Source: Dillenia suffruticosa (Eukaryota; Streptophyta; Magnoliopsida; Dilleniales; Dilleniaceae). From it: a stretch of DNA of 64,000 nucleotides. Shown here piece after piece: positions 25,870 to 60,868 of this stretch (positions within the stretch are counted from its first letter, which is position 1; each line of letters begins with the position of its first letter). A program made the translations under genes and the position numbers. The stretch spans positions 7,296,001 to 7,360,000 of the forward strand of contig JAVTVX010000035.1 of assembly GCA_033439265.1 (NCBI GenBank). The letters run 5' to 3'. The notes beneath the pieces are model-generated. The model did no database searches, was not told where the DNA came from, and saw only the letters and a list, made by a program, of their open reading frames with translations.

Positions 25870-28262
25870 TCTCTCTCTCTCTCTCTCTGATATGGGGGGA
25901 AAAAAACTCACAATATCTCATACTCTCTTTGTTATTATTGTTTATGGTATGAAAAGTTAGGGCATGCATAGGTTGATCTTTTATGGTTTGACAGAATGTA
26001 GCGCATGACTTTGTACATTATTAGAGGGTTATGCTTCTTTTTGCAACTATTTGTTGTTTAAACCACTTATAAAACAAGTTAGAACCCATGGAATGCTTTT
26101 CTTTGCTTTTGAGATGAAAAGCATGAAAGTGGTCTCCTGCTTTTGAAGCAAAAAAGGAATGGTAGATTACTTGGTCTGCTATTAAAAGGATTTGCAAAAG
26201 GAAAAAGAAAAAAGTAATCATTTGAAAGGAAAAAGGGATACGTTATGTCTTGAATGGACTCCCTTTCGTGGTCTTTTGTTGAAAAGATCCCAACCTTGGA
26301 CAGGAGTTAAGATGCTTCTGGACAGCGAGACAAGTGAAACAGCCTGCTTGGTTTCTCTCTTGAAAGAATTTTTAGAAATTTTACGTGCTTTTCTAGAGAG
26401 GGAGGAAAAAAATTCAATATTGAATAAAAAATATTAAAATGTGAAAAACAATTCTTTTCTATATATATTTTAATTCTGAAACAAAATTCCAACAATATAT
26501 GTCTCGGGAAACAATAAAATTAAAATTCAATTTGAATCTATTAAAATTCTAAAAATTACAATTCCATAGAATCTTGATTTCAATTATAGAGTACCAATCT
26601 ATATCAAACCATCAAATTGAAAAGAACATCTTTAATCCTCCACCATACTCCATTTGCCACCAAACTCCTAAATTTGGACATTACTACAAAAATAGACCCA
26701 TGCCGTACGTAGGTTGAAACCAGTGGCAAAAGTCACAAAACCACGCTGAAGGCAGTGTTGCATTAGTTCTATGATGGTTGCAACTGAACCCATTGGCGAC
26801 TTCCGCTAGAGGGTGAGATACTCCCCCGGGGGAGGGGAGGGGGGATCCTGCATTTTCATAAGATTTTGCTGGCTTGAAAGTTAATAGTCAATCAGAGATG
26901 CATACATTCATGCCCGCTTTGTTATCTCCACCCTTTGGATCTCCACTGATGTATTCAAAGGGTTATCCCTAAAAGTGTAAAAAGTTTCTTAATCTATTGA
27001 TCTTGAAATATATAGTGGAAGGTAGAGGAGCATTGAAAGACTAAATCTATCAATTCTAACCCCAATTAGTCTCTAGAATTGTGCATAGAACCTTCATAAC
27101 CTTCTAGTAGAGAAAGTTACACCTAATATTGCTGTAATTAAGAATTATAAGCACAATTCTGGCATATGAAAGAGGAAGGCTTGTGCCAACAAAATATGAG
27201 AGACATAATTAACAAAATATTTATAACCTCTAAATGGCCAATCTAGCTAGCGAGCAGGAGATGTACAGCCAACAACATTTTCTAAACACAACCATTCACC
27301 CGGAAAGAGGAAATGTTATGTATTTTAAGGGTTGAAAATCTAAAAAAAAAAAAAGTTAAGATGAAAATGAATGAAAATATTCACAAAAACCATGACAGCA
27401 AAAATTGGAACAAGCCAAACCTATATCAGCATGAAGGATATAAGCGAAAGACCAGCATAAAGCAGAAAACAACTTTATTTTGCAATATGTCTCCAACCAA
27501 AGAGGGAAAAAGAAAATTGAAGTCAGTAGATACAGGGTATATATAAATCTTTTTGTAGTAAAATAAATTTTAGTCAAAGTTCCTTGCAAATAAAGAACAT
27601 AAAAGATTGGTTGGTTGCGAGAGTCAAAGGGTGCACGAAAGGGATCTATATAGTCAAGAGCAGTTTCATGCTGCCGATAGTGATAATGACGTTAGATTAA
27701 TGATTAATAAAGTAAAGATTTGCATGCATGGCCTCCAGTTGAGATGTATTATGATTACTTGTGGTAATAGGCATTGGGGGTCCATAACTTTTACATGAGC
27801 AATCAACAGAAATACAGTAGCTTTCAGCAGCACTTGATATCAAATTCTTACTGGGTAGAGAACTCATAAAACGCATGCCAACATATTCACGAGTAATAGT
27901 TGATGGACTGCATATCGGCAACAAATCCGAGAAATTATGGGAGAAACAAAAGGAACAAGGTATGGGAAAAGAAAAGAAAACCAAAGTAAAATCAAACTTC
28001 GCACACGGGGTAGGGGATAAATCTTGACCAAGAGATGCAGAATTTGCAGACTCCAAACTTGTGTACACCATGAGTGGGATCTTCCTAAAGGAGAAAATGC
28101 ACCTAATAATAAGAGGATTATACTTTGAGATTACCTCTAAGATAAGCTCACATGCCCCTTCTTAGCGCGTTCAATAGCAAAGTAACTGAAAATATAAGGA
28201 ATGAAAAATTAGAATTTAGTATAGACAAGAATAAAAATCAATGTCTCACTGCATTAATTCTA
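25870..28262. other. Spacer without supported genes
   Basis: Starts with (CT)n just after the annexin stop (possibly its former 3' UTR), then AT-rich sequence. Open frames of 60-125 codons at 26-28 kb show no recognisable domain. Some HPR1 3' exon residue may persist near 28150-28190 (minus: GAACGCGCTAAGAAGGGG after a TTTTCAG acceptor-like site), but the match is too weak to call. Confidence 0.4.
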
Positions 28263-28366
28263 TGAATGTGTCTCACCACATTAGCTTTAGCACCACCTCC
28301 TCCATGCTTGAATATCTTCTCCAAGTAAGAGATGATTCACCATTGGTCTCAGCATAACCTATGCAA
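28263..28366 (-). pseudogene. HPR1: HPR1 exon remnant (c) at the left edge of the array
   Basis: Minus-strand translation GYAETNGESSLTWRRYSSMEEV matches the hydroxypyruvate reductase segment that in Arabidopsis reads ANGEQPVTWKRASSMEEV. The frame shifts after EEV, and a decayed ANVVRHIH corresponds to the EADLISLHP region. HPR1 is the peroxisomal NADH-dependent enzyme of photorespiration reducing hydroxypyruvate to glycerate. This exon lies outside the repeated unit, on the side expected for a downstream exon of a minus-strand gene. Confidence 0.7.
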
Positions 28367-28490
28367 AATTTTTCTGCTTAGAATGTTATCATCTAAAAAA
28401 ATGTCCATTCACTTAGTTGAAATGTGTGAAGTAGGCAAATGCATCAGAATTTCCATGAAATGCATGTAAATTTTAATGATTAGATGGGAG

Positions 28491-28760
28491 TACCATCATT
28501 CTAGGATTAGCATAACCAAAATGACTCCAATCACACACACAATTTGTCCTTTTAGCGAGTTTCTGATAGACTTATAATCGAAATATGACCAACAATCAGA
28601 ACAAACCACTTGCTTTCCTCATCGGAGAATTAGGAAAAAAAAAACACATTGGAAGAGTAATGATGATCATACAGATGAGGAAGCCATCCATCATATAAGC
28701 CTGCTCTAATGAACTTATCCGCTTCCACGGTTCTTCTAACTATTGCGAGGTGAAGATAAA
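28491..28760 (-). pseudogene. HPR1: HPR1 exon remnants a and b, first array unit
   Basis: Exon a (about 28670-28760) reads LHLAIVRRTVEADKFIRAGL then YDGWLPHLY, matching HPR1 LSLAAARRIVEADEF and GGLYEGWLPHLF. Exon b (28491-28563) reads LLKGQTVCVIGV, then after a short deletion RFGYANPRMMV, matching LLKGQTVGVIGAGRIG and AYARMMV. About 100 bp between them looks like the former intron. The same pair recurs in each full unit, about 110-200 bp (a) and 300-380 bp (b) upstream of each tRNA, always antisense to it. Confidence 0.8.
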
Positions 28761-28868
28761 CCTATTAGTTCTACAGTAGTTTCTTATAAACAAATTTTAT
28801 CCTATAAATTATTATTTGACATATTTTGTTTCTTTTTATAATATCATCATTAACTACTCAGCCAACAA

Positions 28869-28939
28869 GCACCAGTGGTCTAGTTGTAGAATAGTACCTT
28901 GCCACGGTATACACCCGAGTTTGATTCCCGGCTGGTGCA
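28869..28939 (+). tRNA. tRNA-Gly(GCC), unit 1, degenerate
   Basis: 71 nt with anticodon GCC. Compared with the array consensus it has GTTGTAG in place of GTGGTAG in the D arm, a TTGCCAC anticodon loop, and CCGAG opposite CCCGG in the T stem (an A-C mismatch). Box B is TTTGATT in place of TTCGATT. Probably weak or inactive. Confidence 0.7.
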
Positions 28940-28950
28940 ATTGGTGAAGC

Positions 28951-29035
28951 TTGAAGCTGTGAGGATAATTGCACTCACAAGTGATGGTGGGTCTATCACA
29001 TGTCTGAATTTCGGATGATAAATTATGAGCTTCAA
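28951..29035 (+). ncRNA. C/D snoRNA-like segment, unit 1 (box D altered)
   Basis: Starts 11 nt after the tRNA. Terminal stem TTGAAGC/GCTTCAA, box C-like GTGAGGA, CTGA (D') in GTCTGAATT, internal ATGATAA (C'). A short deletion before the 3' stem changes box D to ATGA. T-rich terminator from 29036. Confidence 0.55.
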
Positions 29036-29326
29036 TTTTTATTTTTTTAATGTCTTTTCCATAAATTCAAGTTGGCATCCATTGGTGGGCCGACCATGCT
29101 AGTCACATAGTCATAGTGGGCTGGCAAAAGTGACACAGCAACGAAGATATCCTTCCATAACTTACAAGAGATATTTCTGATCATGTAAGAAAATTTATAA
29201 AAACATGGTACAAAAGGGATAAGTAGCGTTCTCTCTCTCTCTCTCCCTAGCATGAGGGTAGAAAATCTAATGTCGAAAGTATGTTGGTCTGGTCATTCCT
29301 TTGCTTTGCAAGACATCGTACCATCA

Positions 29327-29403
29327 TTTTTTTTGTTGTATAAGAATTTGAATCTGCAATCATCAGGTTGGGAATGAGAGTTTGTACCACTACATTATTC
29401 TCT
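29327..29403 (-). mobile_element. Mini tRNA-like A-tailed retroposon inside an array unit
   Basis: On minus: AATGTAGTGGTACAAACTC, then GATTGCAGATTCAAATTCTT, then ATACAACAAAAAAAATGATGG. It has the same arrangement as the copies at 19418, 19612, 44766, 45216 and 49001. Every full unit carries a version, so it was present before amplification. Confidence 0.55.
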
Positions 29404-29990
29404 CGGAGACACCATCATTCTAAGAAATGCATGTAAATCTTAATGATTAGGAACTATAACCTATGCAAAATTCTTCTACTTAGGTTGTGACAATGTAAAA
29501 TGTGACTATTCACTTAGTTGAAATGTTTGAAACAAGCAAATGCATAAAAAATTCCAAGAAATGCATGTAAATTTTAATGATTAGGAACTAAACAAGTAAT
29601 ATGGGAGTACCATCATTCTAGGATTAGCAGAACCAAAACGACTTCAATCACACACACATTTAGTCCTTTTAGCAAGTTTCTGATAGATTTACAACCGAAA
29701 TATGACCAACAATCAAAACAAAACACTTGCTCTCCTCATGAGAGAATTAGGGAAGAAAAAAAAAAACACATTGGAAGAGTAATGATGATCATACAGAGGA
29801 GGAAGCCATCCATCATTTAAGCCTGCTCTAATGAACTTTTCTGCATCCACGGTTCTTCTAATTACTGTGAGGTGAAGATAAACTTATTAGTTCTACATTA
29901 GTTTCTTATAAACAAATTTTATCTCATAAATTATTATTTGACATATTTTGTTTCTTTTTATAATATCATCATTAACTACCCGACCAACAA

Positions 29991-30061
29991 GTATCAGTGG
30001 TCTAGTGGTAGAATAGTATCCTGCCACGGTACAGACCTGGGTTCGATTCCCGGCTGGTGCA
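29991..30061 (+). tRNA. tRNA-Gly(GCC), unit 2
   Basis: 71 nt. The acceptor strand GTATCAG still pairs with CTGGTGC through two wobble pairs; anticodon stem and T arm are intact apart from wobbles. The downstream snoRNA was lost in a deletion that joined the tRNA to HPR1 exon b sequence. Confidence 0.8.
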
Positions 30062-30234
30062 ATTGGTGAAGTATAATTGCAAACCAAAACGACTCTGGTG
30101 AAGTATAATTGCAAACCAAAACGACTCCAATCACACACACAATTTGTCCTTTTAGTAAGTTTCTGATAGACTTATAAACTTATAACCGAAATATGATCAA
30201 CAATCAAAACAAAACACTTGCTCTCCTCAAGTTG

Positions 30235-30335
30235 GCACCAGTGGTCTAGTGGTAGAATAGTACCCTGCCACGGTATAGACCTGGGTTCGATTTCCAGCCA
30301 ATTGCATTGGCTGGGTTCGATTCCCAGCCAATGCA
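30235..30335 (+). pseudogene. tRNA-Gly pseudogene with duplicated T arm, unit 3
   Basis: The 5' two-thirds (acceptor, D arm, GCC anticodon arm) are intact. The T arm occurs twice (CTGGGTTCGATTTCCAG near 30281 and CTGGGTTCGATTCCCAG near 30311), and the 3' acceptor strand reads CCAAT(T)GC, no longer complementary to GCACCAG. Confidence 0.85.
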
Positions 30336-30346
30336 ATTGGTGAAGC

Positions 30347-30438
30347 TTGAAGCTGTGAGGATAATTGTGCTTACAAGTGATAGTGGGTCTATCACACGTC
30401 TCAATTTCGGATGATAAATTAACGCTTCTGAGCTTCAA
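30347..30438 (+). ncRNA. C/D snoRNA-like segment, unit 3
   Basis: 92 nt with stem TTGAAGC/GCTTCAA, GTGAGGA, ATGATAA and box D CTGA just before the 3' stem. D' is changed (GTCTCAA). T-rich terminator follows. Confidence 0.6.
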
Positions 30439-31386
30439 TTTTTATTTTTTTAATGACTTTTTCATAAATTCAAGTTGGAGTCCATTGGTGGGCCGGCCAT
30501 GCTTGTCTCATAGTCATAGTGGGCTGGCAAAAGTGATACAGCACCGAAGATATCATTCCATAACTTACAAGAGATATATCTGATCATGTAAGAAAATTTA
30601 TAAAAACATGGTACAATAGAGATAAGTAGTGTTCTCTCTGTCTTCCTAGCATGAGGGTAGAAAATCTAATGCCCAAAGTATGCTGGTCTGGTCATTCCTT
30701 TGCTTTGCAAGACATCATACCATCATTTTTTTTTATAAGAACTTGAATTTAGAATCATCAGCTTGGGAATGGAGGTTTATATCACTAGACTGTCTCCTCG
30801 GAGACACCATTATTCTAAGAAATACATGTAAATCTTAATGATTAGGAACTATAACCATGCAAAATTCTTCTGCTTAGGTTGTGACAATCTAAGATGTGTC
30901 CATTCACTTAGTTGAAATGTTTGAAGTAGGCAAATGCATAAAAAAATCCAAGAAATGCATGTAAATTTTAATGATTAGGAACCAAATAAGTAACGTGGGA
31001 GTACCATCATTCTAGGATTAGCATAACCAAAACGACTCAAATCACACACACAGTTTGTCCTTTTAGCAAGTTTCTGATAGACTTATAACCGAAATATGAG
31101 CAACAATCAAAACAAAATACTTGCTCTCCTCATGAGAGAATTAAGAAAAAAAAAAAAAAAAACACATTGGAAGAGTAATGATGATCATACAGATGAGGAA
31201 GCCATCCATCATATAAGTCTGCTCTAATGAACTTATCAGCTTCCACGGTTCTTTTAACTACTGCGAGGTAAAGATAAACCTACTAGTTCTGCAGTAGTTT
31301 CTTATAAACAAATTTTATCCTATAAATTATTGTTTGACATATTTTGTTTCTTTTTATAATATCATCATTAACTGCCCGACCAACAA

Positions 31387-31457
31387 GCACCAGTGATCTA
31401 GTGGTAGAATAGTACCCTGCCACGGTACAGACCTGGGTTCGATTCCCGGCTGGTGCA
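31387..31457 (+). tRNA. tRNA-Gly(GCC), unit 4
   Basis: 71 nt, near-consensus, with one D-arm change (GTGATCT in place of GTGGTCT) and a wobble in the T stem. Downstream only the 3' half of the snoRNA segment remains, present twice (about 31460-31506 and 31543-31585), each with ATGATAA and CTGA but no box C. Confidence 0.8.
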
Positions 31458-32529
31458 ATACGTCAGAATTTCGAATGATAAATTAGCGCTTCTGAGCTTC
31501 AATTTTTATTTTTTTAATGACTTTTTCATAAATTCAAGTTGACGTCAGAATTTCGGATGATAAATTAGCGCTTCTGAGCTTCAATTTTTATTTTTTAATG
31601 ACTTTTTCATAAATTCAAGATGGCGTCCATTGGTGGGCCGACCATGCTAGTCTCATAGTCATAGTGGGTTGGCAAAAGTGACACAGCACCGAATATATCC
31701 TTCCATAACTTACAAGAGATATATCTGATCATATAAGAAAATTTATAAAAACATTGTACAAAAGAGATAAGTAGTGTTCTCTCTATCTCTCTCCCTGGCA
31801 TGAGGGTAGAAAATTTAATGCCGAAAGTATGTTGGTCTAGTCATTCCTTTGCTTTGCAAGACATCATACCATCATTTTTTTTACAAGAACTTGAATTTAG
31901 AATCACCAGCTTAGGAAGGGAGATTTATATCACTAGATTGTCCACTCGAAAATACCATCATTCTAAAAAATGCATATAAATCTTAATAATTAGGAACTAT
32001 AACCTATGCAGAATTCTTTTGCTTAGGTTGTGACAATGTAAAATGTGCCCATTCACTTAGTTGAAATGTTTGAAGTAGGCAAATGCATAAAAAATTCCAA
32101 GAAATGCATGTAAATTTTAATGATCAGGAACTAGACGAGTAATATGAGAGTACCATTATTCTAGGATTAGCATAACCAAAATGACTCCAATCACATACAT
32201 AGTTTGTCCTTTTAATAAGTTTCTGATAGACTTATAATCGAAATATGATCAACAATAAAAACAAAACACTTGCTCTCCTCATGAGAGAATTAGAAAAAAA
32301 AAAACCACATTGGAAGAGTAATAATGATCATAGAGATGAGGAAGCCATCCATCATATAAGCCTGCTCTAATGAACTTATCCGCTTCCACGGTTCTTCTAA
32401 TTACCGCGAGGTGAAGATAAACCTATTAGTTCTACAGTAGTTTCTTATAAACAAATTTTATCCCATAAATTATTATTTGACATATTTTGTTTCTTTTTAT
32501 AATATCATCATTAACTACTCGACCAACAA

Positions 32530-32600
32530 GCACTAGTGGTCTAGTGGTAGAATAGTACCCTGCAACGGTACAGACCCGGGTTCGATTCTCGGCTGATGCA
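32530..32600 (+). tRNA. tRNA-Gly-like with anticodon GCA (Cys), unit 5
   Basis: 71 nt. The anticodon at 32562-32564 is GCA instead of GCC, so it would read the Cys codon UGC if made and charged. The acceptor has one C-A mismatch and one wobble; the T stem has a wobble (CTCGG). The snoRNA that follows has lost box D and its 3' stem. Confidence 0.75.
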
Positions 32601-33644
32601 ATTGGTAAAGCTTGAAGCTGTGAGGATGCACTTACAAGTGATGGTGGGTCTATCACATGTCAGAATTTCGGATGATAAATTAGCTTGTTCATAAATTCAA
32701 GTTGGCATTTTTTAATGACTTGTTCATAAATTCAAGTTGGCGTCGATTGGTGGGCCGACCATGCTAGTCTCATAGTCATAGTGGGTTGGCAAAAGTGACA
32801 CAGCACTGAATATATCCTTCCATAAGTTACAAGAGATATATCTGATCATGTAAGAAAATTTATAAAAACATGGTACAAAAGGGATAAGTAGTATTCTCTC
32901 TATCTCTCTCCCTGGCATGAGGGTAGAAAATTTAATGCCGAAAGTATGTTGGTCTAGTCATTCCTTTGCTTTGCAAAACATCATACCATCATTTTTTTTT
33001 TACAAGAACTTGATTTAGAATCACCAGCTTAGGAAAAGAGATTTATATCACTAGATTGTCCCCTCGAATACACCATCATTCTAAGAAATGCATATAAATC
33101 TTAATAATTAGGAACTATACCCTATGCAGAATTCTTCTGCTTAGGTTGTGACAATGTAAAATGTGCCCATTCACTTAGTTGAAATGTTTGAAGTAGGCAA
33201 ATGCATAAAAAATTCCAAGAAATGCATGTAAATTTTAATGATCAGGAACTAGACGAGTAATATGGGAGTACCATCATTCTAGGATTAGCATAACCAAAAT
33301 GACTCCAATCACATACATAGTTTGTCCTTTTAACAAGTTTCTGATAGACTTATAACCGAAATATGATCAACAATCAAAACAAAACACTTGCTCTCCTCAT
33401 GAGAGAATTAAAAAAAAAACCACATTGGAAGAGTAATAATGATCATACAGATGAGAAAGCCATCCATCATATAAGCCTGCTCTAATGAACTTATCCGCTT
33501 CCACGGTTCTTCTAACTACCGCGAGGTGAAGATAAACCTACTAGTTCTACAGTAGTTTCTTATAAACAAATTTTATCCCATAAATTATTATTTGACATAT
33601 TTTGTTTCTTTTTATAATATCATCATTAACTACTCGACCAACAA

Positions 33645-33715
33645 GCACTAGTGGTCTAGTGGTAGAATAGTACCCTGCCACGGTACAGACCCGGGTTCGA
33701 TTCCCGGCTGGTGCA
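33645..33715 (+). tRNA. tRNA-Gly(GCC), unit 6, best preserved
   Basis: 71 nt. It matches the standard plant nuclear tRNA-Gly(GCC) except for one acceptor change giving a T-G wobble (GCACTAG). Intact box A (TGGTCTAGTGG) and box B (GGTTCGATTCC). The 5' flank has ACCAACAAG (CAA motif) and an AT-rich TATA-like stretch. The snoRNA segment is deleted at both ends. Confidence 0.9.
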
Positions 33716-33847
33716 ATTGCGCTTACAAGTGATGGTGGGTCTATCACACGTCAGAATTTCGGCGTGGGTTGGCAAAAGTGACACAGCACTGAATATATCC
33801 TTCCATAACTTACAAGAGATATATCTGATCATGTAAGAAAATTTATA

Positions 33848-33971
33848 AAAACATGGTACAAAAGGGATAAGTAGTATTAAAACATGGTACAAAAGGGATA
33901 AGTAGTATTAAAACATGGTACAAAAGGGATAAGTAGTATTAAAACATGGTACAAAAGGGATAAGTAGTATT
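33848..33971. repeat. Four 31-bp tandem units inside array unit 6
   Basis: AAAACATGGTACAAAAGGGA plus TAAGTAGTATT repeated four times. The single version occurs in other units, so this is a local recent expansion. Confidence 0.9.
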
Positions 33972-34721
33972 CTCTCTATCTCTCTCCCTGGCATGAGGGT
34001 AGAAAATTTAATGCCGAAAGTATGTTGGTCTAGTCATTCCTTTGGTTTGCAAAACATCATGCCATCATTTTTTTTTTACAAGAACTTGATCTAGAATCAC
34101 CAGTTTAGGAAAAGAGATTTATATCACTAGATTGTCCCCTCGAATACACCATCATTCTAAGAAATGCATATAAATCTTAATAATTAGGAACTATAACCTA
34201 TGCAGAATTCTTCTGCTTAGTTTGTGACATTGTAAAATGTGCCCATTCACTTAGTTGAAATGTTTGAAGTAGGCAAATGCATAAAAAATTCCAAGAAATG
34301 CATGTAAATTTTAATGATCAGGAACTAGACGAGTAATATGGGAGTACCATCATTCTAGGATTAGCATAACCAAAATGACTCCAATCACATACATAGTTTG
34401 TCCTTTTAATAAGTTTCTGATAGACTTATAATCGAAATATGATCAACAATCAAAACAAAACACTTGCTCTCCTCATGCGAGAATTAGAAAAAAAAACCAC
34501 ATTGGAAGAGTAATAATGATCATACAGATGAGAAAGCCATCCATCATATAAGCCTGCTCTAATGAATTTATCCGCTTCCACGGTTCTTCTAACTACCGCG
34601 AGGTGAAGATAAACCTACTAGTTCTACAGTAATTTCTTATAAACAAATTTTATCCCATAAATTATTATTTGACATATTTTGTTTCTTTTTATAATATCAT
34701 CATTAACTACTCGACCAATAA

Positions 34722-34792
34722 GTACTAGTGGTCTAGTGGTAGAATAGTACCCTGCCACGGTACAGACCCGGGTTTGATTCCCGGCTGGTGCA
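34722..34792 (+). tRNA. tRNA-Gly(GCC), unit 7, followed by a partial T-arm repeat
   Basis: 71 nt with GTACTAG acceptor strand (wobbles) and TTTGATT in the T loop. Immediately after, 34795-34814 repeats the 3' T arm and acceptor strand (TTCGATTCCCGGCTGGTGCA), so the spacer to the snoRNA is longer than elsewhere. Confidence 0.8.
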
Positions 34793-34825
34793 ATTTCGAT
34801 TCCCGGCTGGTGCAATTGGTGAAGC

Positions 34826-34917
34826 TTGAAGCTGTGAGGATAATTGCGCTTACAAGTGATGGTGGGTCTATCACACGTCAGAATTGCGGCTGATAAATTA
34901 GCGCTTCTGAGCTTTAA
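34826..34917 (+). ncRNA. C/D snoRNA-like segment, unit 7
   Basis: 92 nt with stem TTGAAGC/GCTTTAA, box C-like GTGAGGA and box D CTGA. The internal C' motif is CTGATAA and D' reads GTCAGAA. Confidence 0.55.
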
Positions 34918-35861
34918 TTTTTATTTTTTAATGACTTTTTCATAAATTCAAGTTGGCGTCCATTGGTGGGCCGACCATGCTAGTCTCATAGTCATAGTGG
35001 GCTGGCAAAAGTGACACAGCACTGAATATATCCTTCCATAACTTACAAGAGATATATCTGATCATGTAAGAAAATTTATAAAAACATGGTACAAAAGGGA
35101 TAAGTAGTATTCTCTCTATCTCTCTCCCTGGCATGAGGGTAGAAAATTTAATGCCGAAAGTATGTTGGTCTAGTCATTCCTTTGGTTTGCAAAACATCAT
35201 ACCATCATTTTTTTTTACAAGAACTTGATCTAGAATCACCAGCTTAGGAAAAGAGATTTATATCACTAGATTGTCCCCTCGAATACACCATCATTCTAAG
35301 AAATGCATATAAATCTTAATAATTAGGAACTATAACCTATGCAGAATTCTTTTGCTTAGGTTGTGACATTGTAAAATGTGCCCATTCACTTAGTTGAAAT
35401 GTTTGAAGTAGGCAAATGCATAAAAAATTCCAAGAAATGCATGTAAATTTTAATGATCAAGAACTAGACGAGTAATATGGGAGTACCATCATTCTAGGAT
35501 TAGCATAACCAAAACGACTCCAATCACATACATAGTTTGTCCTTTTAACAAGTTTCTGATAGACTTATAACCGAAATATTATCAACAATCAAAACAAAAC
35601 ACTTGCTCTCCTCATGAGAGAATTAGGAAAAAAAAACCACATTAGAAGAGTAATAATGATCAAAGAGATGAGGAAGCCATCCATCATATAAGCCTGCTCT
35701 AATGAATTTATCCGCTTCCACGATTCTTCTAACTACCGCGAGGTGAAGATAAACCTACTAGTTCTACAGTAGTTTCTTAAAAACAAATTTTATCCCATAA
35801 ATTAGTATTTGACATATTTGGTTTCTTTTTATAATATCATCATTAACTACTCGACCAACAA

Positions 35862-35932
35862 GCACTAGTGGTCTAGTGGTAGAATAGTACCCTGCCACGA
35901 TACAGACCCGGGTTCGATTCTCGCCTGGTGCA
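35862..35932 (+). tRNA. tRNA-Gly(GCC), unit 8, stem mismatches
   Basis: 71 nt. The anticodon stem carries GATAC in place of GGTAC (C-A mismatch) and the T stem 3' strand is CTCGC (one mismatch, one wobble). Confidence 0.75.
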
Positions 35933-35943
35933 ATTGGTGAAGC

Positions 35944-36035
35944 TTGAAGCTGTGAGGATAATTGCGCTTACAAGTGATGGTGGGTCTATCACACGTCAGA
36001 ATTTCGGATGATAAATTAGCGCTTCTGAGCTTTAA
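35944..36035 (+). ncRNA. C/D snoRNA-like segment, unit 8
   Basis: 92 nt with all elements near consensus: TTGAAGC/GCTTTAA stem, GTGAGGA, ATGATAA, box D CTGA; only D' is changed (GTCAGAA). It lies 11 nt after the tRNA. Confidence 0.6.
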
Positions 36036-36978
36036 TTTTTATTTTTTAATGACTTTTTCATTAATTCAAGTTGGCGTCCATTGGTGGGCCGACCATGCTA
36101 GTCTCATAGTCATAGTGGTCTGGCAAAAGTGACACAGCACTGAATATATCCTTCCATAACTTACAAGAGATATATCTGATCATGTAAGAAAATTTATAAA
36201 AACATGGTACAAAAGGGATAAGTAGTATTCTCTCTATCTCTCTCCCTGGCATGAGGGTAGAAAATTTAATGCCGAAAGTATGTTGGTCTAGTCATTCCTT
36301 TGCTTTGCAAAACATCATACCATCATTTTTTTTACAAGAACTTGATCTAGAATCACCAGCTTAGGAAGGGAGATTTATATCACTAAATTGTCCTCTCGAA
36401 TACACCATCATTCTAAGAAATGCATATAAATCTTAATAATTAGGAACTATAACCTATGCAGAATTCTTCTACTTAGGTTGTGACAATGTAAAATGTGTCC
36501 ATTCACTTAGTTGAAATGTTTGAAGCAGGCAAATGCATAAAAAATTCCAAGAAATGCATGTAAATTTTAATGATTAGGAACTAGACGAGTAATATGGGAG
36601 TACCATCATTCTAGGATTAGCATAACCAAAACGACTCCAATCACATACATAGTTTTTCCTTTTAACAAGTTTCTGATAGACTTATAACCGAAATATGATC
36701 AACAATCAAAACAAAACACTTGCTCTCCTCATGAGAGAATTAGAAAAAAAAACCCACATTGGAAGAGTAATAATGATCATAGAGATGAGAAAGCCATCCA
36801 TCATATAAGCCTGCTCTAATGAACTTATCCGCTTCCACGGTTCTTCTAACTACCGCGAGGTGAAGATAAACCTACTAGTTCTACAGTAGTTTCTTAAAAC
36901 AAAATTTTATCCCATAAATTATTATTTGACATATTTTGTTTCTTTTTATAATATCATCATTAACTACTCGACCAACAA

Positions 36979-37049
36979 GCACTAGTGGTCTAGTGGTAGA
37001 ATAGTACCCTGCCACGATACAGACCCGGGTTCGATTCCCGGCTGGTGCA
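36979..37049 (+). tRNA. tRNA-Gly(GCC), unit 9
   Basis: 71 nt, consensus except the acceptor wobble (GCACTAG) and the same GATAC anticodon-stem change as unit 8. Confidence 0.8.
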
Positions 37050-37060
37050 ATTGGTGAAAC

Positions 37061-37144
37061 TTAAAACTGTGAGGATTTACAAGTGATGGTGGGTCTATCA
37101 CACGTCAGAATTTCGGATGATAAATTAGCGCTTCTGAGCTTCAA
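37061..37144 (+). ncRNA. C/D snoRNA-like segment, unit 9, decayed
   Basis: The 5' stem has become TTAAAAC and about 8 nt are missing after box C; ATGATAA and box D CTGA remain. Confidence 0.4.
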
Positions 37145-38063
37145 TTTTTATTTTTTAATGACTTTTTCATAAATTCAAGTTAGCGTCCATTGGTGGGCCG
37201 ACCATGCTAGTCTTATCGTCATAGTGGGCTGGCAGAAGTGACATAGCACCAATATATCCTTCCATAACTTACAAGAGATATATCTGATCATGTAAGAAAA
37301 TTTATAAAGACATAGTACAAAAGGGATAAGTAGTGTTCTCTCCATCTCTCTCCCTGGCATGAGGGTAGAAAATTTAATGCCGAAAGTATGTTGGTCTAGT
37401 CATTCCTTTGCTTTGCAAGACATCATACCATCATTTTTTTTACTAGAACTTGAATTTAGAATCACTAGCTTAGGAAGGGAGATTTATATCACTATATTGT
37501 CCCCTCGAATACACCATCATTCCAAAAAATGTATATAAATCTTAATAATTAGGAACTATAACCTATGCAGAATTCTTCTGCTTAGGTTGTGACATTGTAA
37601 AATGTGCCCATTCACTTAGTTGAAATGTTTGAAGTAGGCAAATGCATAAAAAATTCCAAGAAATGCATGTAAATTTTAATGATTAGGAACTAGACGAGTA
37701 ATATGGGAGTACCATCATTCTAGGATTAGCATAACCAAAACGACTCCAATCACATACATAGTTTGTCCTTTTAACAAGTTTCTGTTTGTCCTTTTAACAA
37801 GTTTCTGATAGACTTATAATCGAAATATGATCAACAATCAAAGCAAAACACTTGCTCTCCTCTTGAGAGAATTAGAAAAAAAAACCACATTGGAAGAGTA
37901 ATAATGATCATACAGATGAGGAAGCCATCCATCATATAAGCCTGCTCTAATGAACTTATCCGCTTCCACGGTTCTTCTAACTACTGCGAGGTGAAGATAA
38001 ACCTACTAGTTTGACATATTTTGTTTCTTTTTATAAAATCATCATTAACTACCCGACCAACAT

Positions 38064-38145
38064 GCACCAGTGGTCTAGTGGTAGAATAGTACCCTGCCAC
38101 GGTGCAGACCTGGGTTCGATTCCCAGCCAATGCCTAGCCAATGCA
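38064..38145 (+). pseudogene. tRNA-Gly pseudogene, unit 10
   Basis: Acceptor 5' strand, D arm and GCC anticodon arm are intact. The T arm is CTGGGTTCGATTCCCAG, followed by AGCCAATGC twice, which cannot pair with GCACCAG. Shares its 3' sequence with unit 3. Confidence 0.85.
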
Positions 38146-38156
38146 ATTGGTGAAGC

Positions 38157-38232
38157 TTGAAGCTGTGAGGATAATTGTGCTTACAAGTGACGTCTGAATT
38201 TCGGATGATAAATTAGCGCTTCTGAGCTTCAA
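38157..38232 (+). ncRNA. C/D snoRNA-like segment, unit 10, internal deletion
   Basis: Stem, GTGAGGA, D' CTGA, ATGATAA and box D CTGA are all present, but about 16 nt of the C-to-D' interval are missing (76 nt in all), removing much of the possible guide upstream of D'. Confidence 0.5.
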
Positions 38233-39179
38233 TTTTTATTTTTTTAATGACTTTTTCATAAATTCAAGTTGGAGTCCATTGGTGGGCCGACCATGCTTGT
38301 CTCATAGTCATAGTGGGCTGGCAAAAGTGACACAACACCGAAGATATCATTCCAAAACTTACAAGAGATACATCTGATCATGTAAGAAAATTTATAAAAA
38401 CATGGTACAATAGAGATAAGTAGTGTTCTCTCTGTCTTCCTAGCAAGAGGGTAGAAAATCTAATGCCCAAAGTATGCTGGTTTGGTCATTCCTTTGCTTT
38501 GCATGACATCATACCATCATTTTTTTTTATAAGAACTTGAATCTAGAATCATCAGGTTGGGAAGAGAGGTTTATATTACTAGACTTTCTCCTCGGAGACA
38601 CCATTATTCTAAGAAATACATGTAAATCTTAATGATTAGGAACTATAACCTATGCAAAATTCTTCTGCTTAGGTTGTGACAATCTAAGATGTGTCCATTC
38701 ACTTAGTTGAAATGTTTGAAGTAGGCAAATGCATAAAAAATTCCAAGAAATGCTTGTAAAATTTAATGATTAGGAACCAGATAAGTAACGTGGGAGTACC
38801 ATCATTCTAGGATTAGCATAACCAAAACGACTCCAATCACACACAGAGTTTGTCCTTTTAGCAAGTTTCTGATAGACTTATAACCGAAATATGAGCAACA
38901 ATTAAAACAAAATGCTTGCTCTCCTCATGAGAGAATTAGGAAACAAAAAAAAAAACACATTGGAAGAGTAATGATGATCATACAGATGAGGAAGCCATCC
39001 ATCATATAAGTCTACTCTAATGAACTTATCCGCTTCCACGGTTCTTCTAACTACTGCGAGGTAAAGATAAACCTACTAGTTCTGCAGTAGTTTCTTACAA
39101 ACAAATTTTATCCTATAAATTATTGTTTGACATATTTTGTTTCCTTTTATAATATCATCATTAACTGCCCGACCAACAA

Positions 39180-39238
39180 GCACCAATGGTCTAGTGGTAG
39201 AATAGTACCCTGCCACGGTACAGACCCTGGTTTGATTA
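39180..39238 (+). pseudogene. Truncated tRNA-Gly, unit 11
   Basis: Intact through the GCC anticodon arm. The T arm stops at TTTGATT and joins AGCTTCAATTTTT, which is the 3' end of the snoRNA segment. One deletion removed the tRNA 3' end and nearly all of the snoRNA. Confidence 0.85.
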
Positions 39239-39397
39239 GTAGCTTCAATTTTTATTTTTTAGTAACTTTTTCATAAATTCAAGTTGGCGTCCATTGGGTG
39301 ACACAGCACCGAAGATATCCTTCCATAAATTACAAGAGATATATCTGATCTTGTAAGAAAATTTATAAAAACATAGTATAATAGGGATAAGTAGTGT

Positions 39398-39428
<31 letters not shown>

Positions 39429-40164
39429 AGCATGAGGGTAGAAAATCTAATGCCGAAAGTATGCTGGTCTGGTCATTCCTTTGCTTTGCAAGACATCGTA
39501 CCATCATTTTTTTTGTTGTACAAAAATTTAAATATAAAATCACAAGATTGTGAATGAGAGTTTGTACTATTAGATTGTTCTCCGGGAAACACCATCATTC
39601 TAAGAAATGCATGTAAATCTTAATGATTAGGAACTATAACTTATGCGAAATTCTTCTGCTTAGGTTGTGACAATATATGATGTGCCCATTCACTTAGTTG
39701 AAATGTTTGAAGTAGGCAAATGCATAAAAAATTCCAAGAAATGCATGTAAATTTTAATGATTAGGGACTAGACAAGTAATATGGGAGTACCAACATTCTA
39801 GGATTAGCAGAACCAAAATGACTCCAGTCACACACACAGTTTGTCCTTTTAGCAAGTTTTTGATAGACTTATAACCGAAATATGACCAACAATCAAAACA
39901 AAATACTTGCTCTCCTCATGAGAGATTTAGGAAAAAAAAAACACTTTGGAAGAGTAATGATGATCATCAGATGAGGGAGCCATCCATCATATAAGCCTGC
40001 TCTAATGAATTTATCCACTTCCACGGTTCTTCTAACTACTGCGAGGTGAAGATAAATCTACTAGTTCTACAGTAGTTTCTTATAAACAAATTTTATCCCA
40101 TAAATTATTATTTGACATATTTTGTTTCTTTTTATAATATTATCATTAACTACTCGGCCAACAA

Positions 40165-40235
40165 GCACCAGTGGTCTAGTAGTAGAATAGTACTCAGTCA
40201 CGGTACAGACCGGGATTCGATTCCCGGCTGGTGCA
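40165..40235 (+). tRNA. tRNA-Gly-like with anticodon GTC, unit 12
   Basis: 71 nt. The anticodon at 40197-40199 is GTC (would read Asp GAC) and the preceding U33 position is A. GTAGTAG in the D arm and a shifted T stem (GACCGGGATTCG) add damage. Probably not a working tRNA. Confidence 0.65.
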
Positions 40236-40246
40236 ATTGGTGAAGC

Positions 40247-40338
40247 TTGAAGCTATGAGGATAATTGCGCTTACAAGTGATGGTGGGTCTATCACAAGTC
40301 TGAATTTCAGATGATAAATTAGCGCTTCTGAGCTTCAA
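40247..40338 (+). ncRNA. C/D snoRNA-like segment, unit 12, most complete
   Basis: 92 nt: stem TTGAAGC (40247-40253) with GCTTCAA (40332-40338), box C-like ATGAGGA (40255-40261), D' CTGA (40300-40303), C' ATGATAA (40311-40317), box D CTGA (40328-40331), then an oligo-T terminator. It begins 11 nt after the tRNA. Box C has one departure from RTGATGA. The layout fits the tRNA-Gly/snoR43 dicistronic genes known in Arabidopsis; the target is not established. Confidence 0.65.
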
Positions 40339-41336
40339 TTTTTATTTTTTAAATGTCTTTTTCACAAATTCAAGTTGTGGTCCATTGGTGGGCCGACCAT
40401 GGTAGTCTCATAGTCATAGTGGGCCGGCAAAAGTGATACAACACCGAAGATATCCTTTTTTGTTTGTTTGGTGAGAGCACCGAAGTTGTCCTTCCATAAC
40501 TTACAAGAGATATATCCGATCATGAAAGAAAATTTATAAAAACATAGTACAATAGGGATAAGTAGTGTTCTCTCTCTCTTCCTAGCACGAGGGTAGAAAA
40601 TCTAATGCCCAAAGTATGCTGGTCTGGTCATTCCTTTGCTTTGCAAGACATCGTACCATCATTTTTTTTTTATTATACAAGAATTTGAATATGGAATCAT
40701 CAGATTGAAAAGGGGATTTGTACTATTAGCTTGTCCCTTCGGAAACACCATCATTCTAAGAAATGCATGTAAATCTTAATGATTAGGAACTATAACCTAT
40801 GCAAAATTCTTCTGCTTAGGTTGTGACAATCTAAAATGTGCCCATTCACTTAGTTGAAATGTTTGAAGTACGCAAATGCATAAAATATTTCAAGAAATGC
40901 TTGTAAATTTTAATGATTAGGAACTAGACAAGTAATATGAGAGTACCATTATTCTAGCATTAGCAGAACCAAAACGACTCCAATCACACACATAATTTGT
41001 CCAATTCCTCACAGACCTATAACAGAAATAAGGCCAACAATCAAAACAAAACACTTGTTTTCCTCATAATTAAAATTAAAAAACCAAATATTGGAAGAGC
41101 AATGATGATCATATAGATGAGGAAGCCATCCATCATATAAGCTTGCTCCAATGAACTCATCCGCTTCCGCTTCCATGGCTCTTCTAACTAATGCAAGATT
41201 AAGCTACTATTTTTGTAGTAGTTTCTTATAAATAAATTTTATCTCATAAATTATTATTTGACACATTTTGTTTCTCTTTATGTTCTTATTCTTATTATTA
41301 ATTAGCGAATATGATCCAGCAAGTACAAGCCAATGA

Positions 41337-41407
41337 GCACAAGTGGTCCAGTGATAGCATAGTACCTTGTCACGGTACAGATACGGGTTTCATTCCCAGG
41401 TGATGCA
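41337..41407 (+). tRNA. tRNA-Gly-like with anticodon GTC, unit 13, diverged
   Basis: 71 nt. Anticodon GTC at 41369-41371 with U33 kept; several changes in D arm (CCAGTGATAGC) and T loop (GGTTTCATTCC). The snoRNA that follows has lost its 3' part including box D. Confidence 0.6.
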
Positions 41408-41543
41408 ATTGGCGAAGCTGTGAGAATAATTGCACTTACAAGTGATGGTGGGTCCATCACACGCCTAAGTGACACAGCACCAAAGATATCCTTCCATAAC
41501 TTACAAGAGAAATATCTAATCATGTAAGAACATTTATAAAAAC

Positions 41544-41649
41544 ATGGTACAATAGGGATAAGTAATGTTCTCTCTCTCCCTCCTCTAGCATTTGGGTAGA
41601 AAATCTAATGCCATAATATAAAAAACATGGTACAATAGGAATAAGCAAT

Positions 41650-41742
<93 letters not shown>

Positions 41743-41807
41743 AGCATTTGGGTAGAAAATCTAATGCCATAATAAACAAAAACATGGTACAATAGGAATA
41801 AGTAATG

Positions 41808-41839
<32 letters not shown>

Positions 41840-41850
41840 CCTAGCATTTG
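41544..41850. repeat. Local triplication with long (CT)n in the last array unit
   Basis: A block from AACATGGTACAATAGG through a (CT)n run to AGCATTTGGGT and AATCTAATGCC occurs three times; the middle copy carries about 44 CT repeats (41651-41739). Confidence 0.85.
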
Positions 41851-42104
41851 GGTGGAAAATCTAATGCCGAAAATGTACTGGTCTTGTCATTTCTTTGCTT
41901 TGCAAGACATGTAACCATCATTCTAAGAAATGCATGTAAATTTTAATAATTGGAAGCTATAACCTATGCAAAAGTCTTCTGATCAGGTTGTGACAACTCA
42001 AAAAATGCCCATTCGGTTGAAATGTTTGAAGTAGGCAAATGCATCAGAAATCCAAGAAATTCATGTGAATTTTAATAATTAGGAGCTAGACAAGTAATAT
42101 GAGA

Positions 42105-42370
42105 GTACCATCATTATAGCATTAGCAGAACCAAAACGTCCAATCACACACACAATTTGTCCTTTTAGCAAGTTCCAGACAGATCTATAACAGAAATAAA
42201 GTCAACAATCAAGACAAAACACTTGTCCTCCTTATGAGAGAATTAAAAAAAAAAAAAAACATTGGAAGAGTAATGATGATCATACAGGTGAGGAATCCAT
42301 CCATCATATAAGCCTGCTCCAATGAACTCATCCGCATCCGCAGTTCTTCTAACCGCTTTAAGGTGAAGAT
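42105..42370 (-). pseudogene. HPR1: HPR1 exon remnants a and b, last array unit
   Basis: Exon a (about 42283-42370) is the best preserved for this part: LHLKAVRRTADADEF, then IGAGLYDGWIPHLY. Exon b lies at about 42105-42178. No tRNA follows further right; beyond about 42400 the similarity to the repeat unit stops. Confidence 0.8.
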
Positions 42371-42679
42371 AATATATTAGTTCTGCAGTAGTTTCTTATA
42401 AGCATTCCCTATCTTAAAAACCACATAAATATCTCCACAATCACATTTCTAGCATTACTTTCTGTCCAATAGAATAAGATCAATGCTATTTATTATAATA
42501 AAAAAGCCCATGACAAGTTTTTTTGTGACTGGTGGCAGATTGTAATAAAAAAATTCCGAACATCATACATAGTAACACTTAATAGTAAATCTGAGCTCAT
42601 GAAAGTATCATCATTCATAATAATTTTTTTTCCTTATAGTAACAGTAAACCTTCTATCTCTCAAAAACAAACTTGCAGG

Positions 42680-42810
42680 ACTTTTTCAAAAGCAACACAA
42701 TACTTAGCAGCAAAGAGATCAACATTATTGTAGCCAACAGCCATGTTACCAAACCCTTTGCTTCCTGCTCTGCTTAAAGCAGAGAACAATGTTTCACCCA
42801 AATCCTTCGT
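42680..42810 (-). pseudogene. HPR1: HPR1 N-terminal exon remnant right of the array
   Basis: Minus translation TKDLGETLFSALSRAGSKGF then GNMAVGYNNVDLFAAKYCV matches the HPR1 N-terminal part (TEDWGETLFSALSKAGGKAF, SNMAVGYNNVD). After YCVAF the frame runs into unrelated sequence. This piece is upstream of exon a in a minus-strand HPR1, as expected if the array expanded within the gene. Earlier exons were not found to the right. Confidence 0.8.
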
Positions 42811-44765
42811 CAGCAGAAACCAAAACAATTCAATCAATTCAGTTATACACATACAATTTGATTCTCAAACAGCAAATTGATCCAGTGAGTTCCCAAGTTT
42901 TCTGCCAACAATTCTATACTTTACATTCGGATTACCAGCCATAAGGAAAACCAAATTTGTCACCGAAAAACTCTTGAAGGAAGTTAATGCATCTCCTAGC
43001 AATCCGTGTCAAAACAAAGGTGCAATTTAAGCACTGGAAACCAAGGTAGTCCTGGCAGACCCTTATGACAGGACACACAGATCTTTGAAATGTAGGAGCT
43101 TTGAGTGTCATTGAAGTTGACAGACAAGCACCAGCATATAAGCGTAACTCCAAGCACATCCTTATATTACTTTATCAGGTGGACAAATGGGAAACCTCAT
43201 ACATTTGTCCACCAATATATTTAAGAATCAATGTACAAACTACACAATATATGGACAATTATACAAGGATTACATTACAACCCCTGGCCTCTAACTAGCG
43301 CTGATCTTTTTACAGCATAAAACACCAACATTGAGTGGTCTCAAAGCAAAAGGCGAAATCCACATTAAGTCCAGTATGATCATTGTCTTTGGCCTTTGAA
43401 CCATATCAAGGGATTTGAAATATAACAGAAGAAGAAATTTAAAGTGATCACTCGGGAAAAAGTACTGCAAAAATATATATCCAAATGCTAAACAAATGGG
43501 GGAGAGAGAGAGAGAGAGAGAGAATTGAGGAATCATATTAACAATAAAAAAATCATATCTATGCTAAGATGCTTAGTTTCGCAAAACATGGAATGGTCAG
43601 CTACTGGTAGATTGAATATTAAAGCGGTTGCTTACATCCTTTCTTTCACAAAAATTCAGTTGCATGATGAAATGTGAGAGAACCTAAAACATAGATCCTT
43701 TGGCAAGCAAAATTATCAGGAGTAAAGTTACCATGAAAATAACCTCCCTAGGATATATCTAACTTCAAAGAATTCTTATATTGGGTAATTCATACCCCCA
43801 TACTAAACCTAGCAATCTTCAATCAGAAAATTGAAACTTTCAAGTTAGCAGAATCACAAAATGAATTAACCCATTATCAACCATTGGAATTTGAGCAAGG
43901 TTCCGTGAAAGAAAGCGACAGACCCACATCAAACACCCAGTAATTACTAACCCTAAAATCTCTGTAAACATTTCAAAGCCCAAACAATGACACGTGCTCT
44001 GCTCATACTTCTTCCGCTTCCGGTCAAAAACATTGACCGGTCAAAGTTGGAGCAACGGGTCAATAAACCCGGTCTCCGGGTCACTCAACTTTTTGCCTTT
44101 TCCTTTCTTTTTCTCAACTCTCTTTGCCGGTACCGAGGGCGTGTTTATTTTATGAAAATATTCAATTATATCAATTTATAAAGATTATTTTCAATTTTTT
44201 TACATTTTTACAAATATTCAAATTTTTTCTGTAGAACGATTTCCTATAATTATCAGAATTATAATATTCTATTTTTTAGTAAAAAAATATTTAAGAAATT
44301 CATTTTTTGGAAAATACCCAAAAATAAAAATAAAAATAAAAATATTTTCTCAAATTCTATTATTGAAAAAAATAAATACAATTATAATAAATATTTAAAC
44401 TAATTTTTAGAATAGTTTTAAAATTGTGCTGCTTGAAAATAGTTTTAATTACCCAAAACAGTTTTCATATGTTAACAAAAAAAAAAAAAGAAAGAAAGAA
44501 AGAAACCATTGTATCTAAATTGTAGTCAAAACTCTTTAATTAAAAATACTTTTGCTCTAATATCAAAGTAAGTTTACGAAAAATGATAGATTTTATGGTA
44601 AAAATAAAACAAAAAATACAATCGAAACACTTAAAAATTTAAAAAAAAATATATATTTTTTAATAACATTACGTTTTTGCTTCTCACGCAAATTACCATT
44701 CTATATGTAATTCTTTCTTCAATTTTTTTTACTCTTCCCCAATGTATTATTTGATCTATCTTTCT

Positions 44766-59101: not shown

Positions 59102-60868
59102 TTTCTTCTTCTCACTATATATATATATATATATATTTTTTGTTTCTCATTCAATTATTTTCAGATTGCGAGTTCTGACATCCCTATGAAGTGAATGGGG
59201 CTTTAAAGAGAATGAAGAATAATAAAGCCTAGGACCCGAGAACATCCCTATAGAAGTGTGGAAATGATTAGGTGAATTTGGTATAATAATGTTAACGGAT
59301 ATTTTCAACAAAATTTGATAAACCAAGAAAATGCCCCAAATATGGAGGAAGAGTATAATCGTATAGCTATATTAGAATAAAGGAGACATACAAAATTGTT
59401 CCAACTATAGAGAAATTAAACTTATGAGCCATACCATGAAACTATGGGAAAGAATGATAGAACATAAATTGATATTAGAGATAAATATTTCTCAAAATCA
59501 ATTTGGATTTATGCCTGGTAGATTCACTACGGAAGCAATCCACTTGTTAAGACATTTGATGGACACATATAGAGCACATAAGAGAGACTTACATATGGTA
59601 TTCATTGATCTAGAAAAAGCATATGATAGGATTCCTAAAGATGTATTATGGTGGGTGCTGATAAAAAAATGGATATCTTCGAAATATATTAATCTCATTA
59701 GAGATATGCATGAGGGAGTTGTAACTAATGTAAGAACTCGCAGGGGTTTGAGCAATAGCTTTCCCATTAACATCGGATTCCATCAAGGCTCAGCATTAAG
59801 TCCCCTCCTCTTTGTAATAGTAATAGACAAAATTATAAAAAACATTCCAGATGAAATACCACGGTGTATGTTTTTTGCAGATGATATAGTTCTAGTTGAT
59901 GAAACTAGGGAGGGTATTCATGCTAAATTAAAGTTATGAATGATCATACTAGAATTCAGAGGGTTTCAATTGAGTAGATCGAAAATTGAGTATATGAGAT
60001 GTAGGTTTAGCAACAATCATCGAAATGACGACAAAACGATCAGATTAGATGGACAAGATGTACTAGAAAATGAATGATTTAGGTATCTAGGTTTCATCAT
60101 TCAAAATGATGGCAATATAGATTGAGATGTGAACCATAAAATTCAAGCATACCGGATGAAATGGAGAAAAACATCCGGAATTCTTTGCGATCGCACGATA
60201 CCAATGCATTTGAAGGGAAAGTTCTATAGAGCCGCGGTTAGATCTGCATTATTGTATGGTACTGAGTGTTGGGCTATTAAACAACCATAATAACAAAAAA
60301 TAGTTGTAGCAGAAACGAGAATGCTTAGGTAGATGTGTGGGAAAAGTAGAAGAGATAGAATTAGAAATGAAGAGATTCGTAACAAGTTGGGAGTTAGTTC
60401 AATTGTGGATAAGATGCGAGAGTGTCGTTTGAGATGGTTTGGGCATATGCAAAGAAGACTTAAGGACACACCAGTTAAGAGAATCGAGAACTTAAAAATG
60501 AGAGATTTAGTAAAGCGTAGGAGTAGACCGTTAAAAACTTGGATGCAAGTTATTAGTAAAGATATGATAGTTAAGGATGTAGACGAGAAAATGACCATCG
60601 ATAGAAATGAATGGCGTAAAAGAATCCGCACAAATTAAATTAATATATTTTAAATTTATTTATTTATTTATTTATTTACTTTTATTATTATTATTATTAT
60701 TATTATTTTTATTCTCTTCTATATTTATTTATATTTTTGTATTTATTAATTTTTTTTTCTTTTTAATCATAATTTGTCTCTCAAATGACCGACTCCAAAT
60801 TATTGGGTTTAAGATTCAGTTTGTTGTTATTGTTGAGTTCTGATTTCTGCGATGAATTGTTGAAAATA

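Follow-up and report, generated by a model that had tools for sequence, protein, structure and literature searches.

How does a stretch of plant nuclear DNA come to repeat a transfer RNA (tRNA) sequence a dozen times, with a small nucleolar RNA (snoRNA) or a piece of one in every repeat? The question is raised by a window of 64,000 nucleotides from Dillenia suffruticosa (contig JAVTVX010000035.1, positions 7,296,001 to 7,360,000; C35:7296001-7360000 in the whole-genome copy of 596 Mb and 37 contigs that we searched), which at 28484-42098 on the plus strand holds a tandem array of 12 head-to-tail units, in each of which a tRNA-Gly-derived segment is accompanied by a box C/D snoRNA or at least a fragment of one. 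Judged from its sequence, the array most probably grew from one RNA polymerase III (pol III)-type dicistron of tRNA-Gly and the snoRNA snoR114 lying inside an HPR1 pseudogene, and similar units have been amplified separately elsewhere in the genome. In kind the locus is ordinary, a tandem array, mostly dead, of a plant gene type already known, but its arrangement is unusual.

Layout and content of the units

The units are 0.99-1.40 kb long at a spacing of ~1.1 kb and start at 28484, 29601, 30996, 32144, 33262, 34338, 35477, 36594, 37703, 38791, 39781 and 40937. Using the unit 35477-36593 as query, head-to-tail matches were obtained from 28354 to 42404, in line with the tandem array of ~1.1-kb spacing that an earlier note on this DNA had described. 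The 13 dicistronic units of that note were reduced to 12 tRNA-bearing ones, as the extra repeats at both array ends are HPR1-only pieces without tRNA or snoRNA, and 13 intact dicistrons are ruled out because most units are broken and a full-length snoRNA with boxes and stem is left in 4 of the 12 units. Units 4-8 are 94-98% alike, the other pairs mostly 81-93% (95% for units 2 and 9), a pattern common in arrays of this kind. The unit spacer includes a dispersed repeat (36326-36396) with more than 20 matches elsewhere in the genome.

The tRNA-Gly genes proposed in the note were confirmed by ARAGORN, whose nine tRNA calls within the window lie on the plus strand from 28869 to 38134, eight being tRNA-Gly(GCC) and one a tRNA-Gly-derived copy with the anticodon GCA. 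Behind the tRNAs at 29991, 31387, 33645, 39180 and 41337 there is no snoRNA or only a fragment. For the snoRNA, Rfam returned full-model matches to the family snoR114 (RF01421), above the gathering score at six places (28954, 30350, 34829, 35947, 37064 and 40250), and a looser Rfam search added three copies below that score (38160, 32615 and 41415). The C/D snoRNA trailer claimed earlier therefore stands as far as the family match and the boxes and stem of the intact units are concerned, but most units are broken, and Rfam assigns the snoRNA to snoR114 rather than to the snoR43 of the plant genes that the note had cited.

In the intact units the 11-nt linker is followed by the closing stem TTGAAGC/GCTTCAA with box C (GTGAGGA or ATGAGGA) and box D (CTGA) and then by a T-run, as the note had read them. 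Ten window copies were tabulated, with two 3' halves (31460, 31542) and one weak match (51975) set aside. Only the copies at 30350, 34829, 35947 and 40250 are full-length and have box C, box D and the closing stem; the shortened copy at 38160 keeps these elements too and the other five do not. Two of the full-length four (34829 and 35947) follow a tRNA-Gly called by ARAGORN, while 30350 lies behind a malformed and 40250 behind a mutated tRNA. Across 13 selected copies 90.2% of the cells of the closing stem are standard pairs, compared with at most 50% when the partners are slid, and one pair switches between A-U and G-C, with none of 500 shuffles reaching the covariation score. The tRNA and snoRNA features are as follows.

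28869..28939, plus strand: unit 1, tRNA-Gly(GCC) (ARAGORN; Rfam 47.1 bits)
28954..29032, plus strand: unit 1, snoR114, box D lost (Rfam 48.1 bits)
29991..30061, plus strand: unit 2, tRNA-Gly(GCC), no snoRNA directly after it (ARAGORN)
30235..30306, plus strand: unit 2, second tRNA-Gly copy with altered 3' end (our own model R2, 76.5 bits; Rfam 34 bits)
30350..30435, plus strand: unit 2, full-length snoR114 (Rfam 56.8 bits)
31387..31457, plus strand: unit 3, tRNA-Gly(GCC), then two snoR114 3' halves at 31460 and 31542 (ARAGORN)
32530..32600, plus strand: unit 4, gene derived from tRNA-Gly, anticodon GCA, named tRNA-Cys (ARAGORN)
32615..32690, plus strand: unit 4, snoR114 with internal deletion, without box D (looser Rfam search, table)
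33645..33715, plus strand: unit 5, tRNA-Gly(GCC), best tRNA of the array (Rfam 60.3 bits)
33715-33762, plus strand: unit 5, snoR114 cut at both ends
34722..34792, plus strand: unit 6, tRNA-Gly(GCC) with altered B box and a 22-bp duplication of its 3' end (ARAGORN)
34829..34914, plus strand: unit 6, full-length snoR114 (Rfam 61.6 bits)
35862..35932, plus strand: unit 7, tRNA-Gly(GCC) (ARAGORN; Rfam 40.5 bits)
35947..36032, plus strand: unit 7, full-length snoR114 in the most complete dicistron of the window (Rfam 64.5 bits)
36979..37049, plus strand: unit 8, tRNA-Gly(GCC) (ARAGORN)
37064..37141, plus strand: unit 8, snoR114 with an 8-nt deletion behind box C (Rfam 45.8 bits)
38064..38134, plus strand: unit 9, tRNA-Gly(GCC) (ARAGORN)
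38160..38229, plus strand: unit 9, snoR114 lacking 16 nt including the internal hairpin, boxes C, D and stem kept (looser Rfam search)
39180..39247, plus strand: unit 10, truncated tRNA (own model)
39241-39268, plus strand: unit 10, 28-nt snoRNA remnant
40165..40235, plus strand: unit 11, mutated tRNA-Gly without ARAGORN call (Rfam 36.2 bits)
40250..40335, plus strand: unit 11, full-length snoR114, top score of the window (Rfam 65.5 bits)
41337..41407, plus strand: unit 12, degenerate tRNA (own model)
41415-41466, plus strand: unit 12, partial snoR114 (looser Rfam search)

The HPR1 pseudogene and the origin of the array

A tblastn search with Arabidopsis HPR1 (a query differing from P0017 in one residue) showed that each unit contains DNA derived from HPR1 on its minus strand, matching residues 130-158 and often 159-172. 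The earlier note was right in placing HPR1-derived DNA on this strand, but the pieces are fragments of a pseudogene and not functional exons. A role of the HPR1 exons as functional antisense cargo was rejected in view of the stops in this copy, an array-free pseudogene on contig C13 and a locus on C21 (L034) where HPR1 residues 1-380 are matched in pieces, the assembled protein being 89% identical to Arabidopsis HPR1 and having its closest match in Trapa incisa (94%). The pseudogene parts and the inserted segment are located as follows.

28291-28374, minus strand: HPR1 residues 204-234 (tblastn)
28354..28789, minus strand: left-most copy of a 436-bp HPR1-pseudogene repeat, running left into residues 204-234 (tblastn; 79% to the C13 locus L033)
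28790..29455, plus strand: 666-bp inserted segment of unit 1, with 5' flank, tRNA-Gly, snoR114, T-run, downstream flank and a ~40-bp HPR1 intron copy at its right end (junction alignment)
42099..42404, minus strand: right-most HPR1 repeat copy, joined to the pseudogene's 5' part with no insert between them (unit self-match, junction alignment)
42586..42933, minus strand: stop-containing 5' part of the HPR1 pseudogene, best matches to residues ~11-116 (tblastn)

The array-free paralogue on C13 (L033) is 79% identical to the window at 27500-28782 (1349 aligned columns) and at 41957-43497 (1582 columns), in a comparison whose query was bounded at 27500 and 43500, and the two matches overlap by ~430 bp, the stretch that recurs in the units. 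The junctions are sharp: after the host sequence stops near 28789 comes the 666-bp segment, and from 29456 the host sequence is taken up again about 436 bp 'earlier', immediately preceded by the ~40-bp HPR1 intron copy. A copy of the dicistron, 666 bp long, lies inside the HPR1 pseudogene and between direct copies of the 436-bp HPR1 segment. Given the sharp ends, the 436-bp repeat and the ~40-bp patch, we infer that it was inserted during the repair of a break, with duplication of a large flank and a templated patch. The direct 436-bp repeats would have made unequal crossing-over possible, which could have led to the 12 units and homogenised the middle ones. A relative of the tRNA-snoRNA segment and of part of its downstream flank, without HPR1, is present on C34 (L022) with 75-82% identity over the best pieces.

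As tandem repeats are prone to mis-assembly, and 2500 N interrupt the stretch of contig C37 that holds a second array, the arrays might also be assembly artefacts. We regard this as highly improbable, since the window units differ by 2-19% and carry private indels and the flanks match the array-free paralogue.

Dicistronic organisation, decay and possible past methylation

The earlier note had placed the T-run only after the snoRNA with none after the tRNA, which we could confirm in the intact units and at nine dispersed snoR114 loci elsewhere in the genome. These nine loci (three of them, on C29, may be mutually related) are a better test than the array copies, because the latter are related to each other, and in 9/9 the first T4 run begins 0-12 nt after the snoRNA end, the chance for this being 0.05-0.10 per locus. 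In the arrays, a search starting 7 nt before the snoRNA found no T4 run before +73, counted from the snoRNA start, in 10/10 window copies and 54/56 of the C37 copies tabulated. By pattern, a B box was matched upstream at 6/9 dispersed loci, an A box at 5/9 and at least one of them at 7/9, with neither at the loci C19 and C29a; for the snoRNA copies of the window the respective upstream matches are 7/10 (A box) and 6/10 (B box). Among the full-length four, both boxes were found at 30350 and 35947, the A box only at 34829 and neither at 40250, and the unit 35862/35947 is the one that passes each test. These results are consistent with a pol III-type tRNA-Gly/C-D snoRNA dicistron, best at the independent loci elsewhere in the genome. 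Few window units can perhaps still act as such, the best candidate being 35862/35947, perhaps joined by 34722/34829 with its altered B box and 30235/30350 with its malformed tRNA.

Several observations weigh against this interpretation and have to be set beside it. Random starts in the window array have a median distance of 100 nt to the next T4 run (33 nt in the C37 array), so that the T4-free stretch in the window alone is unremarkable. Only one of the four pairs of the closing stem is changed on both sides, a count reached by 386/500 shuffles, and folding of the unit 7 precursor gives a weak z-score of -1.9. ARAGORN rejects or re-reads several of the array tRNAs, and the steps of repair and crossing-over are read from end products alone. 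As snoR114 and most snoR43 variants are orphan C/D snoRNAs in Arabidopsis according to the available part of PMC8053127, snoR114 has no methylation target assigned to it. Finally, the mean pairwise divergence among units 1-11 is 0.109 for the tRNA and 0.134 for linker plus snoRNA (with 16.5% missing on average, and possibly inflated by misalignment at indels), compared to HPR1-derived stretches at 0.060-0.087 and a downstream spacer at 0.097, which points to extensive decay.

Being at least as diverged as the surrounding pseudogene, tRNA and snoRNA make most units look unconstrained. The 60 nt before the tRNA diverge by 0.049, a value that is not below what the neighbouring sequences lead one to expect, and for units 3-8 taken by themselves the values of tRNA and spacer differ little (0.048 and 0.038). 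At A/T positions fewer changes were counted in the tRNA (~4/315) than elsewhere (~209/6765), a difference that is not significant (p = 0.063). The array as a whole is thus decaying, and a few units may be active.

Outside tRNA and snoRNA, the CG and CHG sites of units 1-11 show C>T changes at about twice the frequency of CHH sites (51/581 compared with 119/2827; counts rounded back from rates), which suggests past cytosine methylation. A silenced and methylated tRNA cluster like that for Ser/Tyr in Arabidopsis, active at most in special cells, would show such a spectrum, and for the Arabidopsis Ser-Tyr-Tyr cluster methylation and silence in most tissues are described in the accessible portion of PMC12308677. 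The spectrum suggests only that the cytosines were methylated at some time, however, and we consider a silenced cluster a tentative possibility, which is compatible with the origin from a single dicistron in the HPR1 pseudogene.

Recurrence in the genome and comparison with known systems

A genome-wide search with the Rfam snoR114 family gave at least 51 matches (57 candidates scored), and the same search in 14 control genomes gave none. For upland cotton, snoR114 is listed as a multi-copy type with 24 copies in the available part of PMC11222342. A second, interrupted array is located on C37 (~3990000-4091300; L009-L019) with a unit of ~976 bp, for which our own model R1 found 59 snoRNA matches (56 tabulated, after dropping three weak ones) and ARAGORN 40 tRNAs, 35 of them for Gly. 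The C37 unit matches the window unit only in the tRNA-snoRNA part, lacks HPR1 and has an unrelated spacer that includes a relic tRNA and is in part duplicated internally, and a common array ancestor of C35 and C37 beyond the tRNA-snoRNA pair is thereby ruled out. Around the C37 array, minus-strand snoZ103 pairs recur three times (L009:2202-2472, L016:6560-6850 and L019:8265-8555), a sign of larger segmental duplications.

The C37 copies bear on the question whether selection for more tRNA-Gly and/or snoR114 has held the amplified units for their dosage. In 42 chosen C37 units the snoRNA diverges by 0.086, slightly less than the spacers (0.106-0.124), and the leading tRNA by 0.104 compared with 0.177 for the relic tRNA, and 28/56 snoRNA copies keep box C, box D and the closing stem; this is a hint of weak constraint, and the amplification of tRNA-Gly-led dicistrons in several arrays would suit such a dosage effect as well. 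Nevertheless tRNA and spacer have diverged to about the same degree on C37, and in the window a called tRNA-Gly together with a full-length snoRNA is present in just 2/12 units, with tRNA and snoRNA no more conserved than the pseudogene, making selection for dosage an unlikely explanation.

Two further arrays are found on C16 (L036, C16:4155902-4341948; L037, C16:5527074-5612206), with units of 885 and 823/1646 bp that consist of tRNA-Gly, a short T4-free linker and tRNA-Phe(GAA); two sampled stretches of 3.5 and 4 kb contained no snoR114. As the C16 arrays are 70-77% alike they share an origin. The exact tRNA-Gly 3' end occurs 102 times in the genome and the exact tRNA-Gly/tRNA-Phe junction pattern 148 times, with 99/100 of the matches listed lying on C16. 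The top-scoring snoR114 of the genome search (76.6 bits; L020:4553-4716 on C27) is preceded by a degenerate tRNA in which the A and B boxes are retained. A group of three snoR114 copies above the Rfam cut-off and some weaker ones was seen at C29:7725001-7745000 (L023, L024).

It might be that tRNA-Gly(GCC) provides a second RNA with a portable pol III promoter and a signal for release by RNase Z, in dicistrons amplified repeatedly with snoR114 on C35 and C37 and with tRNA-Phe in the two C16 arrays. At dispersed loci the tRNA would lose its decoding parts, often keep the A and/or B box and so become a promoter and processing cassette, a proposal that we put forward with some reserve. A mobile element (SINE, short interspersed element, or Helitron) that carries the tRNA-snoRNA pair and was copied in tandem would be another route: a Helitron origin is argued for the Arabidopsis tRNA-Cys cluster in the available part of PMC10701932, and part of the unit spacer (~36326-36396) is the dispersed repeat named above. 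The insert is bordered by a 436-bp host duplication and a templated patch, however, and the window has only tRNA and snoRNA in common with the C37 unit and only the tRNA with the C16 units, so that we give the mobile element very little weight and keep to amplification from a dicistron inside the pseudogene.

Elsewhere in the window, 12142-12216 (minus strand) is a group II intron match above the Rfam cut-off, perhaps an insertion of organelle DNA, and open frames at 59376-60635 (plus strand) resemble, by eye, a reverse transcriptase of the LINE (long interspersed element) type. An HSP20-like open reading frame of the window gave a single hit, to Dillenia turbinata at 68%.

The locus is of interest because such arrays recur within one genome, and what is new is this repeated amplification of tRNA-Gly-led dicistrons. 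With arrays, dispersed copies whose tRNAs have decayed to different degrees and an array-free paralogue side by side, one could test directly how pol III dicistrons originate, multiply, fall silent and die, and whether a tRNA can persist merely as promoter and processing signal for a snoRNA. Among the papers that a literature search listed, judged by titles and abstract starts and with the founding 2003 study lying outside them, no tandem array of tRNA-snoRNA dicistrons turned up.

Plant dicistronic tRNA-Gly/snoR43 (tsnoRNA) genes were reportedly described by Kruszka et al. in 2003 (EMBO J 22:621), a paper that PMC8053127, PMC8351944 and PMC8166872 cite. The units described here share with them a leading tRNA-Gly, a C/D snoRNA a few nt further on and a T-run after the snoRNA. 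Genes of this tRNA-snoRNA type are mentioned, with the 2003 citation, in the available parts of PMC4660826, PMC8351944 and PMC3022908, and the accessible text of PMC8166872 gives, quoting Michaud et al. 2011, tRNA-snoRNA spacings of 1-16 bp, a range that includes the 11-nt linker of the window, with no poly-T behind such tRNAs. In contrast, the snoRNA here is by Rfam snoR114, the genes form tandem arrays, most window units are broken and the tRNA has decayed at several dispersed loci. As to Rfam RF01421, six window copies pass its gathering score over the full model, whereas box C reads GTGAGGA/ATGAGGA here and GTGAGGT on C37 and the linkage to a tRNA is outside the model. The window array also fits the description of plant tandem tRNA clusters, with head-to-tail tRNA units of one or two isoacceptors, and in it, as in the Arabidopsis clusters for Pro, Ser-Tyr-Tyr and Cys (available parts of PMC12308677 and PMC10701932), tandem tRNA genes are accompanied by pseudogene copies and the units vary; the tRNA-Pro clusters often overlap introns of opposite-strand genes (PMC10701932, same part). 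The word snoRNA is absent from both papers, and in contrast to them each unit described here is a two-RNA dicistron, in which the tRNA-Gly is joined to a snoRNA or, on C16, to a tRNA-Phe.

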